Shown: piece after piece, positions 99-10,098 of the stretch | How positions within the stretch are numbered: the first letter of the stretch is position 1 | How the letters are laid out: each line of letters opens with the position of its first letter | IMG/VR virus record: IMGVR_UViG_3300044998_000013 | Span: 1 to 24,233 of that record | Length of the DNA: 24,233 nucleotides | Reading direction: 5' to 3' (one strand) | From: a virus | The notes under the pieces: model-generated | What the model was told of the DNA's origin: nothing | The model's database searches: none | The model's input: the letters and a program-made list of their open reading frames with translations, nothing else | Program-made: the position numbers and the translations under genes

Positions 99-141
99 AC
101 CGTGATGGTGTCTGTGTGGGTAAAGCCGATACCATCACGGT
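99..141. repeat. Perfect 11-bp inverted repeat
   Basis: ACCGTGATGGT at 99-109 is matched exactly by its complement ACCATCACGGT at 131-141, with 21 bases between. No T-run follows on either strand, so an ordinary intrinsic terminator is unlikely. It could be a protein-binding site or an RNA hairpin. Confidence 0.5.
119..133. repeat. GGTAA-N5-ATACC element, copy 2
   Basis: GGTAAAGCCGATACC, the least symmetrical of the three copies. It is followed after three bases by ACGGT (137-141), the same layout as at copy 3. It overlaps the right part of the inverted repeat 99-109/131-141. Confidence 0.4.
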
Positions 142-194: not shown

Positions 195-479
195 CTCTGT
201 TTCGGCTCAGTGTTGCTTCTGTGTCATCCTCTGTTGCGTAATTTTCTGTTTATCTTCAATCGCTTCAATGTAAACCGACACAGAAAACAGAGAATCCTTA
301 TAGGGCATGGTAGCAGGTATAGGGAAAGTGAATATAAACAGATTCTATTGAATCGTATATTATACCTCCTAGGGAAATATTCGTTGTTTCGCGTCGGCAC
401 CCCCCCTGAACAGGGTATAAGCCTAACTAAAACAATGACTTTTTGATGACACAGACACTATTAAACAGAGTAACACAGA
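195..479. repeat. Cluster of two short repeat motifs (iteron-like)
   Basis: Motif A, TCTGTGTC or its complement GACACAGA, occurs at 218-225, 277-284 and 448-455. A 7-base core also occurs at 473-479 (ACACAGA) and 111-117 (TCTGTGT). Motif B, CTCTGTTT or its complement AAACAGAG, occurs at 195-202, 285-292 and 463-470, with a 7-base copy at 229-235. The copies left of 240 are in one orientation and those right of 270 in the other. A and B are adjacent at 277-292 and near each other at 448-470 and 218-235. An 11-base inverted pair lies at 218-228 and 445-455. Such arrays are typical of initiator or regulator binding sites; the binding protein is unknown. Confidence 0.6.
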
Positions 480-620: not shown

Positions 621-639
621 AACCCGCTCAGAGCGGGTT
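621..639 (-). terminator. GC-rich hairpin at the primase stop codon
   Basis: AACCCGC (621-627) and GCGGGTT (633-639) form a seven-pair stem around the primase stop codon. On the primase strand no U-run follows directly. About 50 bases further downstream, on the same strand, a weak GGGA/TCCC hairpin is followed by five T (complement of 567-571). This may be a transcript end or a 3'-protecting hairpin. It is a weak terminator call. Confidence 0.3.
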
Positions 640-3306
640 CTCGGTGCCTTTGGCTTGCTTGACGAAGTGCGCTGCCCAGGCGTTCGGCTTCACCTTGACT
701 CCCGACACGGCTGGAAACCAAGCCCTCTGGCATCCGTATCGCTCGAAGTAGCGGAACCCGTCATGAACCCATCCGAGCGAACGAAGTGCCTGCGCGACGT
801 GCATGGACAGTATGCGGTCTTGCCGACCGAGTTCCTTGCCGAGGATTTCGGACACGATCTGCGCAGAGCACAGGGCTTCAGGGCGGTTCGGCTCCGACCC
901 CGGCTTGTCGAACTTCGACGTGACATCTCCCCGGATGACCCAATCCGCGATCAGGCCCGCGATAACGTCAACCTCGTTCTCTTCCATCTTCTCTCCCTGA
1001 AGCATCCTAGCGATGGCTTCTGCTTCGCTGCTCAGGGTCAGGACGAGATCGCCCATCGACTTGGGCCACTCGTGCCTCATGGTCAGGTAGAGGTGCCGCG
1101 CCTCGGCCCATATCTGCGGCGCGTTCTTGCGAAGGGCGTGGAAGTCCACGTTTCTTCCTGAAGCCCGTATCGGCCAGAACCTGCGGTTGCCCGACCTGTC
1201 GCTCAGGTATGATTCGGCATTGGTGGTCCCGATCAGCGTGAAGCCGCGCCTGATCGTGCCGGTGTAGTGGCCGTATGCCTGCCTGAGCGTCACCGCTGTT
1301 TGCGTGATGTAGGCTTTGACATCCTCGACTTCCGCGCGCCGCATCGAGGACAGTTCTGGAAGCTCCACGATCAGTGCCCCGACGGTAGCCTCGAAGAGCT
1401 TCTGAGTGTCCTTGAAGTTGGCGGTCAGGCTCTTGCCGAAGCCCATGGCGAGGAGTTGGACGAACGTGGACTTTCCGATCCCCTGCGGCCCCTCGATGAT
1501 CGGCACATAGTCGAACTTGTGTCCCGGCTCGTAGACCCTCGCGACGGTGGCGACCAGGAACAACCGGGCGGTCTCCCGGTGATAGGCGTTGTCTTCTGCG
1601 CCGAAGTAGTCGATCCAGAGGCGTTCGCAGCGGCTCTCGCCGTCCCACTCTTCGCGGAACAGACGGTCCTTGATGGAGTGGAAGCTGTTCTGCCGAGCAG
1701 CGGCTTCCACAGCCGCCCGGACATCGGCTGTCGTTGCCTTGATCCCCCAACCCATCTTGTCCCCTCCGGAGGCGGCGGACAGCATGATTCTCGCCAGGGT
1801 GATGTGGTAGTCGGCTATGTCGTCCCCGATGTCAGGGTTCTCCACGACGGCCTTCTCGTAGCCGCTCATCCGGACGTTGAGGTCTTTGCGGATGACGGGC
1901 CGGTTGGTGGCCTCGTCGAAGGCGAAGCTCCGGCAGAGGCGGAGGTCGTTCATCACGATGTGCGTGACGTTCGCGATGGTGTTCAGGACGGTCCCGTCCT
2001 TGCTCACCTCAAGCTCCAAATGCCAATCCTTCGCGGGCTTCCGGCGTATGGAACCCGGCGGAAAGACCTTGTGAGGCGGCGGCGTCCATGCGGACCTTCC
2101 GGGGGGAATCCCGATGAGGTCCAGGTCTTCCTCGTCGATCCCGGCGAGCGGGTCTTCAGGCGTGTCATCGTCGTTCTCGACGTAGGCGTCTTCAACGTCC
2201 GCGTCGGTGAACATGCGGGTGATGTTGTAGCGCGACTCAAGCTGCTGCTGGCGCACCTCCGGGAGCGACTGAGCTAGATCGACCATGGCCTTGAAGCTCG
2301 GCCTTTTGCCGATAGGGGTCTCGCGGTCGTTGGCGTCGTCCAGATGACCGAACTTGTGGATTCGGACCATATCCCATGCGTTGACCAGTTGGTCGGCGCA
2401 GGGGTCGCTACCGTGGTGCGAGTAGAGGAAGTCGCCGTCGTCCTCGACCACGGCTCCATTGGCCGAGGTGGACGCGAAGTAGGTGAAACGAGGCTTGGAC
2501 GAATGGGTGTCACCCGGCAGATATACGCCGGGTATCAGTTCGTCCATGGCCTTGAAGATGTCGAAGGCACGGCAGAAGTCTCCGACGATACCCTTCTTCT
2601 CGCGGGGGTTCTCGGCCTTCTCCGCGACCTTCCGAAGCTCTTCGTCAGCGACCCTCGGGAGGACCGAGTGGTCCCGCCAGTCGCCGTGTATCATGCTGAA
2701 GACCTCGACGGCTTCCTGCCAGTCCAGAAGTCTTCCGCGCTGCTCGTGGAAGAAGAACTCGCCATCCCTGGAAGCCGTCGGCAGGAACATCATCTGCGCG
2801 GCACGGAAGCTCACCTTGTCGAAGAAGGTCATGTCCGGGTCGATCATGTGTGCGACGATCCGCGACACAGGCGAGTAGTCGTCGTTCTCGATGGGCGTTC
2901 TGACCGGAATCGTGATTCGGATACGCGGCTTGTCCGACGTGTGCCGTCTGGTCGAGTTCGCACAAAGGGCGACACCGGGGAGGACGTTCCCCGTCGTCAG
3001 GTCTTCGATGAACTCCGGCGTGGCGAAATCGAGGTCGAGCGTGATGAGGTCGCTCGGTTTTCCGCTGTCCCTGTTCCGCCTTCCGGCGTTGACCTGCGTG
3101 CGGAAATACCAGCCGTTGACGGACTTCAGCTTGACCTGCTCGTCCTGCGGCAGGGAGATATACTCGCGGAACTTCTCGGCTGTCCTGACTGGTGCGGACA
3201 GCATGTCCTTGACCTGACGCCATGATCTGACGACGTTCTTGGCCTTGCCGTAGTTGGTTCCGCGACCGATAGCGAAGTGAATCAGTTTGTCATCGGTTTT
3301 GGGCAT
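628..3306 (-). CDS. Phage primase-polymerase / VirE-like helicase
   Basis: This probably makes primers and unwinds DNA at the phage origin. From the chosen ATG at 3304-3306 it is 892 residues. The N-terminal part looks like an archaeo-eukaryotic primase-polymerase: an acidic pair D91-L-D93 in a strand-like context, then a His (H122) in an S-T-R-R-H run followed by a basic hydrophobic strand. The C-terminal part is a VirE/D5-type P-loop ATPase. Walker A is GPQGIGKST near residue 605, the Walker B-like stretch VELPELS is near 647, and the arginine-rich sensor stretch TTNAESYLSDRSGNRRFWPI is near 695-713. A longer frame extends to 3498 but would overlap the regulator gene at 3390-3641 and has no family features, so I reject that start. 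The gene reads opposite to the rest of the replication genes and follows the regulator by 83 bases, probably in one operon. Confidence 0.85.
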   Translation of the reverse strand: MPKTDDKLIHFAIGRGTNYGKAKNVVRSWRQVKDMLSAPVRTAEKFREYISLPQDEQVKLKSVNGWYFRTQVNAGRRNRDSGKPSDLITLDLDFATPEFIEDLTTGNVLPGVALCANSTRRHTSDKPRIRITIPVRTPIENDDYSPVSRIVAHMIDPDMTFFDKVSFRAAQMMFLPTASRDGEFFFHEQRGRLLDWQEAVEVFSMIHGDWRDHSVLPRVADEELRKVAEKAENPREKKGIVGDFCRAFDIFKAMDELIPGVYLPGDTHSSKPRFTYFASTSANGAVVEDDGDFLYSHHGSDPCADQLVNAWDMVRIHKFGHLDDANDRETPIGKRPSFKAMVDLAQSLPEVRQQQLESRYNITRMFTDADVEDAYVENDDDTPEDPLAGIDEEDLDLIGIPPGRSAWTPPPHKVFPPGSIRRKPAKDWHLELEVSKDGTVLNTIANVTHIVMNDLRLCRSFAFDEATNRPVIRKDLNVRMSGYEKAVVENPDIGDDIADYHITLARIMLSAASGGDKMGWGIKATTADVRAAVEAAARQNSFHSIKDRLFREEWDGESRCERLWIDYFGAEDNAYHRETARLFLVATVARVYEPGHKFDYVPIIEGPQGIGKSTFVQLLAMGFGKSLTANFKDTQKLFEATVGALIVELPELSSMRRAEVEDVKAYITQTAVTLRQAYGHYTGTIRRGFTLIGTTNAESYLSDRSGNRRFWPIRASGRNVDFHALRKNAPQIWAEARHLYLTMRHEWPKSMGDLVLTLSSEAEAIARMLQGEKMEENEVDVIAGLIADWVIRGDVTSKFDKPGSEPNRPEALCSAQIVSEILGKELGRQDRILSMHVAQALRSLGWVHDGFRYFERYGCQRAWFPAVSGVKVKPNAWAAHFVKQAKGTENPL

Positions 3307-3389: not shown

Positions 3390-3641
3390 CTAACGTGTGA
3401 ATACGAAACGGTGCAAGTCTTCCAGGGACACGCGGCCCTCGGACATTTCCACGATCTGCTGCGCCCGCTCGGGCGAAATCTTCATGCGTCTGGTCCACTT
3501 CCAGATTGCCATTCTGGTGACGCCGAGCTTCCTCGCAGCGTTGATGATGGTCTTCTCGCCGCGCGCGTCGGGAGGCACGGCGACGAGAATCAGGCGAAGA
3601 AGTTCGTTGTCGACAGACTCAGGACTCGGGTGTGCAGGCAT
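3390..3641 (-). CDS. Small helix-turn-helix regulator (Cro/YdaS-like)
   Basis: An 83-residue protein with a helix-turn-helix at about residues 31-52 (INAARKLGVTRMAIWKWTRR). After it comes an ERAQQIVEMSEGRVSLEDL stretch, resembling the end of YdaS/Cro-type phage repressors. It probably binds DNA as a dimer and controls the divergent promoters just upstream. The ATG is preceded by GAGAGG at about seven bases on this strand, supporting the start. It is the first gene of the leftward unit and is followed by the primase gene. No CI-like repressor with a protease domain is seen in the window, so whether this is the lysogeny switch or only an early-gene regulator cannot be said. Confidence 0.75.
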   Translation of the reverse strand: MPAHPSPESVDNELLRLILVAVPPDARGEKTIINAARKLGVTRMAIWKWTRRMKISPERAQQIVEMSEGRVSLEDLHRFVFTR

Positions 3642-8605: not shown

Positions 8606-10098
8606 TGCCTGCTATTCCAAAGTTTTTCAACGATTTGGAGATAGAAGAGCTTGTCTACGGCCCTCCGGAGGTGATTCGGACGGAGGAGGATTTCAGGCCC
8701 TATCAGAAGTGGATGTCCGAAGCCGTAATTGACGCCAAGAAGGTCTACCTCGCGGCGGAGATGGGTCTTGGGAAGACGGCCTGTGTTCTTCATGCGTTCT
8801 CGCAGCTATTCGCGTTCGGACAGGTTCGTCGTCTTCTCGTTGTCGCCCCGTTGAAGGTGGCGGAGGACACATGGCCCGATGAGATCGCGGCGTGGAGCTT
8901 TGCGCGAGGTCTGAGCTATGTCGTGGTAACGGGCGGAGCGGATCAGCGCGAGGCGGCGCTTTCTCTGGGGCCGCGAGACGTTACGATCATCAATCGCGAG
9001 AACCTGAGTTGGCTGTATCAGAAGTTCGGCCCCGCCAGGTGGCCTTTCGACGCTCTTGTATACGACGAGGCTACGAGGCTGTCTTCCGGCAGGTTCAAGA
9101 CCGCCCCGACGGTCTCCGAAGGCGTGAGGCGATACACCAATCGCGATACCAACCTCGGCGTCATCAACAAGGTCTGGCGGAAGCTGAATTACATCGTCCT
9201 GCTTTCCGGGACTCCCGCCCCGAAGGGGCTTATCAACCTATGGGGTCCGATCTACGCGCTGGATCGTGGTGCTCGCCTTGGAGAGAAGTTCACGTCATTC
9301 AAGGACAGGTGGTTCCGACAGTCCAAATACGGTTACGAGGTCGAGCCTTTCGCGCACTCGCGCGATGAGATCATGGGCCGTATCAAGGACGTTTTCTTTT
9401 CCCTTCGCGAGGAAGACTACCTGAAGCTGCCGAAGCTCGTTGTGGTCGACAGGTTCGTCGATCTTCCGCCTTCAGTCCTGAAGCGATACCGCGATTTTGA
9501 GCGGAAAATGGCCATTGAGGTCGTCAAGAACAGGGAGGATCGCGAGGTCGTCCGGGCTTTGACGAAGGGAGTTCTTCTGAACAAGCTGTTGCAGTTCGCC
9601 AATGGGTCTCTCTACGTTGAGGACGGTTCGGACGTTCCGCAGCATACCGAAAAGCTGAGGGCGCTTGAGTCCATCATCGAGGAAGCCAATGGCAAGCCTG
9701 TGCTTGTTGCCTACAGCTTCCGGTTCGACCTTGATGCCATCAAGAAGCGTTTCCCCCACGCTCGGATTTTTGGCCAGAACCAGAATGACAAGAGGGAATG
9801 GAACGAAGGAAAGATTCCGTTGATGCTGATTCACCCGGCATCTGCCGGTCACGGACTCAACATCCAGCGCGGATCGAACATCGCGGTTTGGTATGGCCTG
9901 ACTTGGAGCATGGAGCTATACAAGCAGTTCATCAAAAGGCTGCATCGCTCCGGCCAGACGGAGGACCACGTTTTCATCTACCGTATTCTTGCGCGCAATA
10001 CGGTCGACATGCGCGTGGCCCGTGTTCTCAGTAAACGCGAGGTTGACCAAAACGCCATTACTGATATGGTCAGGGTCTATCTTGAAGAGGTTGCGTAG
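8605..10098 (+). CDS. SNF2-type DEAD/DEAH helicase
   Basis: A superfamily 2 ATPase of 497 residues. Walker A is GLGKT (54-58), motif II DEAT (154-157), motif III SGTP (201-204), motif V SAGHGLN (about 412-418) and motif VI RLHRSGQ (about 445-451). The final helicase half has the WSMELYKQFIKRLHRSGQ run typical of phage SNF2 proteins. It probably remodels DNA or moves proteins off it during replication or recombination, together with the VRR-NUC nuclease. A GTG at 8602 directly precedes the ATG at 8605; I took the ATG, which overlaps the stop of the previous gene (TGATG). The stop overlaps the GTG start of the next gene by one base. Confidence 0.9.
   Translation: MPAIPKFFNDLEIEELVYGPPEVIRTEEDFRPYQKWMSEAVIDAKKVYLAAEMGLGKTACVLHAFSQLFAFGQVRRLLVVAPLKVAEDTWPDEIAAWSFARGLSYVVVTGGADQREAALSLGPRDVTIINRENLSWLYQKFGPARWPFDALVYDEATRLSSGRFKTAPTVSEGVRRYTNRDTNLGVINKVWRKLNYIVLLSGTPAPKGLINLWGPIYALDRGARLGEKFTSFKDRWFRQSKYGYEVEPFAHSRDEIMGRIKDVFFSLREEDYLKLPKLVVVDRFVDLPPSVLKRYRDFERKMAIEVVKNREDREVVRALTKGVLLNKLLQFANGSLYVEDGSDVPQHTEKLRALESIIEEANGKPVLVAYSFRFDLDAIKKRFPHARIFGQNQNDKREWNEGKIPLMLIHPASAGHGLNIQRGSNIAVWYGLTWSMELYKQFIKRLHRSGQTEDHVFIYRILARNTVDMRVARVLSKREVDQNAITDMVRVYLEEVA

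Follow-up and report, generated by a model that had tools for sequence, protein, structure and literature searches.

What is the function of a cluster of short repeats that change orientation midway through the left non-coding region of a phage contig? The window analyzed here is the entire virus record IMGVR_UViG_3300044998_000013 (24,233 bp, classed linear), which is a fragment with a tape-measure gene interrupted at its right end. The repeats (111-479) lie in non-coding DNA 3′ of a minus-strand primase-helicase gene that ends at position 628. The first-pass annotation had placed them beyond this gene in an AT-rich stretch, and it was confirmed that the GC content is 0.456 over positions 1-500 versus about 0.60 elsewhere in the contig. 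An origin with initiator sites and a multi-site operator had been offered as the two explanations. A small HTH gene lies directly upstream of the primase-helicase gene, and comparable small HTH genes are found upstream of the primase-helicase in Rhodobacter phages and in S-ESS1. After this region, the plus strand encodes a DUF2800 exonuclease, a single-strand binding protein, a DNA polymerase, a helicase, a terminase, and portal, capsid, and tail proteins. A phage-inducible chromosomal island (PICI) was considered for the element and ruled out, because it has its own terminase, portal, capsid, and tail genes and is thus a phage. No Rfam match or tRNA was found in the window. The genes of concern are as follows.

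628-3306, minus strand: VapE-type primase-helicase, 892 aa from ATG, the proposed initiator (PF05272, E=2e-64; phrog_256, E=9e-191).
631-999, minus strand: C-terminal domain of the primase-helicase (residues 770-892), the proposed iteron reader (pLDDT about 85 in the full-length model; mean 85 in the model of the isolated domain).
3390-3641, minus strand: Cro/YdaS-like small HTH gene directly upstream of the primase-helicase gene, a candidate regulator and rival reader (PF15943, YdaS_toxin, 37.7 bits with a cut-off of 30).

The first-pass annotation had described an array of two 8-base motifs between 195 and 479. Each of them occurs three times in the whole window, TCTGTGTC at 218-225 (+), 277-284 (-), and 448-455 (-), and CTCTGTTT at 195-202 (+), 285-292 (-), and 463-470 (-), with no copy outside that interval; the mean counts in shuffled sequence are 0.73 and 0.64, respectively. 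It was revealed that the two motifs are variants of one family with the 7-mer A[A/C]ACAGA (TCTGTKT/AMACAGA) as the common core. This 7-mer occurs ten times exactly in the 24,233-bp contig, always at 111-479 (369 bp), and is absent from the remaining 23.8 kb or so. Thus, the two motifs are real, while the copies at 111-117, 245-251, 336-342, and 473-479 had been overlooked. The TCTGT forms start at 111, 196, 218, and 245 on the plus strand (n=4) and at 278, 285, 336, 449, 463, and 473 on the minus strand (n=6), so that one orientation prevails over 111-251 and the opposite one over 278-479, just as the annotation had noticed for left and right. Its pairing of the two motifs is exact at 277-292 and 448-470, and the pair that it had called less exact, near 218-235, spans 218-236 and has one mismatch in the second member (CTCTGTTG). 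The elements of the array, located by motif scan unless stated otherwise, are listed below.

111-117, plus strand: iteron TCTGTGT, an outlying copy that overlaps the left arm of a hairpin.
196-202, plus strand: iteron TCTGTTT (within CTCTGTTT at 195-202).
218-224, plus strand: iteron TCTGTGT (within TCTGTGTC at 218-225).
230-236, plus strand: degenerate iteron TCTGTTG with one mismatch, recognized from the sequence.
245-251, plus strand: iteron TCTGTTT.
278-284, minus strand: iteron TCTGTGT.
285-291, minus strand: iteron TCTGTTT.
325-384, no strand: the AT-richest 60 bp of the array region (72% AT), a putative DNA-unwinding element between two iteron clusters, placed as in relatives.
336-342, minus strand: iteron TCTGTTT within the AT-rich stretch.
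449-455, minus strand: iteron TCTGTGT.
463-469, minus strand: iteron TCTGTTT.
473-479, minus strand: iteron TCTGTGT.

Two iteron sets, at 196-291 and 449-479, thus flank the AT-rich stretch at 325-384, with the single copy at 336-342 inside it. The iterons are spaced less evenly than those of many relatives, and the contig, itself a fragment, contains no second cluster of such repeats.

Is such a cluster expected by chance? Counting the motifs over the whole genome had been recommended, and a look-elsewhere control was added, in which any 7-mer with one ambiguous position was allowed, provided that it was clustered within 400 bp and nearly absent elsewhere. By this measure, the real array scores 10 (all ten copies at 111-479), the best other cluster in the contig 4, and 200 block-wise dinucleotide shuffles 6 at most. 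On a less strict statistic, which counts the 8-mer pairs that recur, the array exceeds all 100 shuffles but is matched by five of 66 coding windows of the contig. Thus, the case for enrichment rests on the specific motif and not on general repetitiveness. A composite, CTCTGTTTTCTGTGTC, was also tried; its 21 matches in a scan of viral contigs showed no primase homology and were attributed to chance.

Which protein might read these repeats? The solved structure closest in sequence to the primase-helicase is 7pds (chain 'Similar to D. nodosus vapE', E=1e-40). When modelled with AlphaFold2 (mean pLDDT 82), the protein matches chains of the same entry ('PriRep1 with dsDNA', a VapE-like protein of SaPI) with E=3e-28 and a TM score of 0.75-0.80 by target length. 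By its matches to PF05272 and 7pds, the protein belongs to the VapE/D5-like helicases and would be of the self-loading type. An alternative GTG start at 3498 would extend it to 956 aa. The C-terminal domain is predicted to fold as helix-helix-strand-strand, resembling a winged helix. A fold search with the model of the isolated domain gave nothing below E=0.05, and the C-terminal alignment, compared as a profile with the full-length one, matched only itself. SaPI Rep uses its C-terminal domain to recognize iterons located just downstream of the gene that encodes it (PMC7581432).

Are there similar arrays in related phages? The relatives include members of Casjensviridae, namely Ruegeria phage DSS3-P1, Synechococcus phage S-ESS1, and Rhodobacter phage RcPescado, as well as many environmental contigs. 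The window, as a fragment, can be compared in its replication module, which is syntenic with six contigs (L002-L007) and homologous to those of DSS3-P1, S-ESS1, and RcPescado, all classified in Casjensviridae. In about 35 related loci, of Casjensviridae and some phages of Gram-positive bacteria, an array lies directly 3′ of the same gene, and its repeat is lineage-specific. In an unbiased locus-wide scan, the best localized motif cluster starts between -50 and +1000 bp from the primase stop codon in 36 of 61 related loci, as against about 5.5 expected, a count that is not fully independent because a few loci are near-duplicates. In the remaining loci, several of the best clusters lie 1-2.5 kb further 3′, some lie elsewhere, and some were not found. 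Most loci with a gap behind the gene have a short repeat there, in several copies and in both orientations (for example CGGTAGA, CCGGCACA, GTTTACA, CCTGTGC, ACCTGTCC, or GATACCCC, depending on the lineage), and these iterons often form two clusters of mixed orientation around an AT-rich gap. Among the Gram-positive phages that have both the gene and the gap, iterons are clear in Listeria LWP01, Staphylococcus 2638A, Brevibacillus Emery, and C. difficile phiCDKH02 and weak in Streptococcus Javan630. Two phages whose next gene abuts the primase-helicase gene, leaving no gap, have no iterons. Plasmid-like iteron sets can also serve partition, incompatibility, or copy control through a protein other than the primase-helicase, and some of the relatives are temperate; however, no partition or copy-control gene was recognized in the window, and in phages of several hosts the arrays lie behind the primase-helicase gene, so that such a role is very improbable here.

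The closest relative of the window is L071, which is 73% identical in the primase part, 77% in the helicase part, and 38% in the C-terminus, and whose iterons differ; it is the sole close relative available for comparing iterons and initiator with those of the window. According to the first-pass annotation, the absence of the motifs in close relatives with the same gene order would speak against its proposal. The letters are indeed absent (L071 has TGGAACC, not ACACAGA), while the array as such is retained. Since the array is still there and its sequence has changed in parallel with the C-terminal domain, the missing letters do not refute an origin. Upstream of the primase gene, L071 has a frame (278-1648) that by eye resembles a tyrosine integrase, suggesting a temperate phage or a prophage. 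Over 28 divergent loci, iteron similarity was not significantly related to C-terminal identity in a partial Mantel test that controlled for helicase identity (r=0.08, p=0.14); in this set, C-terminal identity is near saturation and the motif seeds of some loci (e.g. L041) are probably suboptimal. Thus, the argument rests on close phage pairs.

Such pairs exist among cultured phages. One consists of Ruegeria phages DSS3-P1 and V16, which share a host and in which most proteins are 95-100% identical. At the DNA level, the identity is 94.5% as far as about codon 449 of the primase-helicase gene and 86% on the far side of the array. Between these flanks, protein identity falls to 32% in the helicase half and 37% in the C-terminus, and the two phages have entirely different iterons (TGGAACAC versus ATCGGACA). 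DSS3P1_82, a small ORF between the primase-helicase gene and the array of DSS3-P1 (L039 845-1213), has no match in V16 and is part of the swapped cassette. V16 has an extra annotated HTH gene, V16_23, without a close counterpart in DSS3-P1, and for eight further small proteins of unknown function the two phages likewise show no close match. Given these unmatched small proteins, the helicase half covaries best with the iterons but is not alone in doing so.

This swap bears on the operator that the first-pass annotation had offered as its second explanation, in which the repeats would bind a phage repressor or a Cro-like HTH protein, for instance the YdaS/Cro-like product of 3390-3641. Clustered repeats are typical of operators too, and the small HTH gene directly upstream of the primase-helicase, with its likes in the Rhodobacter phages and S-ESS1, would supply a reader. 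However, the array lies at the 3′ end of a gene and not at a divergent promoter, and the array region has a single promoter-like match, which equals the chance expectation. Moreover, all DSS3-P1 proteins annotated as HTH or regulator have a match of 98.7-100% identity in V16 while the repeats are entirely different, which makes an operator unlikely. The integration site attP fares still worse. Short repeats in two opposed groups, with an AT-rich core between them, do resemble the arm-type sites of an attP, and relatives have tyrosine integrases, but no integrase gene was recognized in the window record, the integrase gene lies more than 10 kb from the array in DSS3-P1/V16 and in RcPescado/RcMrWorf, and the integrases of DSS3-P1 and V16 are 99.8% identical while the repeats differ. 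Arm sites for an integrase are therefore hardly credible. The DNA polymerases of the two phages are 98.8% identical.

A packaging site was considered in the same way. A conserved CGGGGCTCCGCGCACCC-type element marks the end of many related contigs, exactly or to within a few bases, and in relatives it lies on the 3′ side of the proposed origin array at a distance of a few hundred bases. It resembles a Chi-type cos and looks like the natural cos end of these phages. Elements of this type form the locus ends of L003, L004, L043, L045, L047, L048, L051, and L057, and also occur near 9342 in L002 and 3′ of the array in L071. Since a cos of this type lies just past the array in relatives and several contigs end exactly there, the repeats might be cosB-like sites for the small terminase subunit. 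Against this, the conserved cos core is distinct from the lineage-specific repeats, and no cos core was recognized next to the array of the window. In DSS3-P1 and V16, furthermore, TerS (99.6%) and TerL (100%) are near-identical and the cos side is conserved while the iterons have been replaced; cosB sites are thus a very unlikely explanation. A segment of the window at 392-410 (GCGTCGGCACCCCCCC) resembles the core of the relatives but has the opposite orientation, and it was not accepted as a Chi-type cos core. Long tandem repeats of short period (CCTGACCG; CCACGGCCCGGCCCC...) lie between the cos-like element and the contig end in L002 (about 9500-9810) and L005 (about 9400-9703) and are perhaps assembly artefacts.

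A smaller change of the same kind was found in Rhodobacter phages. The iteron core is GGTGAG in RcPescado, RcPutin, RcJoli, RcWhiteOak, and RcAqua and ACTGAG in RcMrWorf and RcBigEagle, and the change is at aligned positions in a largely conserved background. The primase-helicases of the RcPescado type and of RcMrWorf are 95% identical overall, and the identity is lowest at the C-terminus, about 84% (83.6%) over the last 125 or so residues and 78% in the last alignment block. Between RcPescado and RcMrWorf, the terminase is 97-99% identical (TerS 99%), and of three HTH proteins, one is 100% identical and the others 90-93%. The natural swaps in cultured phages, as judged from sequence comparison, are the strongest evidence for an origin.

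It is therefore proposed, with a probability of roughly 85%, that the array is the replication origin of the phage, of the iteron type known from SaPIs and PICIs, and that it is bound by the C-terminal domain of the adjacent primase-helicase. Of the two explanations in the first-pass annotation, the origin with initiator sites is strongly supported by the placement of the array, the lineage-specific iterons of relatives, and their co-replacement with the helicase half and the C-terminal domain, while the operator is disfavoured. The array is enriched in its motif, lies 3′ of the primase-helicase gene, and has a layout conserved in relatives; between close phages, the iterons are replaced together with the helicase half or the C-terminus. 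By analogy with SaPI Rep, the C-terminal domain would bind the iterons, helicase rings might then form to either side of the AT-rich stretch, which they would melt, and the forks would be started by the helicase with its fused primase. Initiation in vivo would probably follow this course.

How does this origin compare with known ones? The alpha protein of phage P4 is a single primase-helicase that also recognizes short iterons, although P4 needs a second cis region (crr) as well. In origins of the lambda O type, the iterons lie inside the O gene beside an AT-rich stretch and are bound by the phage initiator O, which is not a helicase. The window shares the placement of iterons beside an AT-rich stretch, whereas its array is non-coding and lies outside and 3′ of the helicase gene. 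The SaPI/PICI Rep (pri-rep)-ori system (PMC6092414, PMC7581432) supplies the solved structure, 7pds, that is closest by both sequence and fold. In both systems, the array directly follows the 3′ end of the gene for a VapE-type initiator helicase, the iterons are short, specific to each lineage, and arranged in two sets about an AT-rich stretch, and a C-terminal domain is the proposed reader; in PICI origins, two iteron sets always flank an AT-rich region (PMC6092414). In contrast to these satellites, the window belongs to a tailed phage that encodes terminase, capsid, and tail proteins of its own, the array adjoins the phage cos end in relatives, and the iterons of the window are less regularly spaced. 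SCCmec Cch2 with its putative origin (PMC7581432) is also an initiator-like helicase with repeats downstream of its own gene, to which it binds via a C-terminal domain, but it has only three 5-nt iterons, its partner primase is a separate complex, and the mobile element is different. In the RepA-ori of PLE, the Vibrio cholerae satellites (PMC7145576, PMC8263062), iterons and initiator are likewise exchanged as a cognate module and the iterons diversify, while RepA is a RepA_N protein without helicase or primase and the iterons are semi-palindromes of about 30 bp.

Thus, this class of origin is already known from satellites. No report of such an origin in Casjensviridae was found in the open-access literature, and what appears to be new is that a satellite-type origin occurs across a tailed-phage family, in which each lineage has its own iterons and these change in step with the helicase half or the C-terminus. 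It is tentatively suggested that phages with a VapE-type primase-helicase have a satellite-style origin in which the iteron and the domain that reads it make up an exchangeable specificity module that diversifies fast, possibly as a result of conflict; this broader view is offered with less than even confidence. In PLE, a phage nuclease that mimics the satellite initiator selects for iteron change (PMC8263062). By analogy, satellites borrowing the initiator, or nucleases mimicking it, might possibly drive the change in phages. DSS3-P1/V16 and the Rhodobacter phages offer near-isogenic pairs for direct tests of initiator-iteron specificity.

Near the left contig end, two overlapping plus-strand frames (1-178) stop before the array and may belong to another gene that ends here or reflect a frameshift in the assembly; no convincing homologue was found for the peptides readable there. 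An imperfect hairpin, ACCGTGATGGTGTC / GATACCATCACGGT, lies at 99-141 and overlaps the outlying iteron at 111-117.
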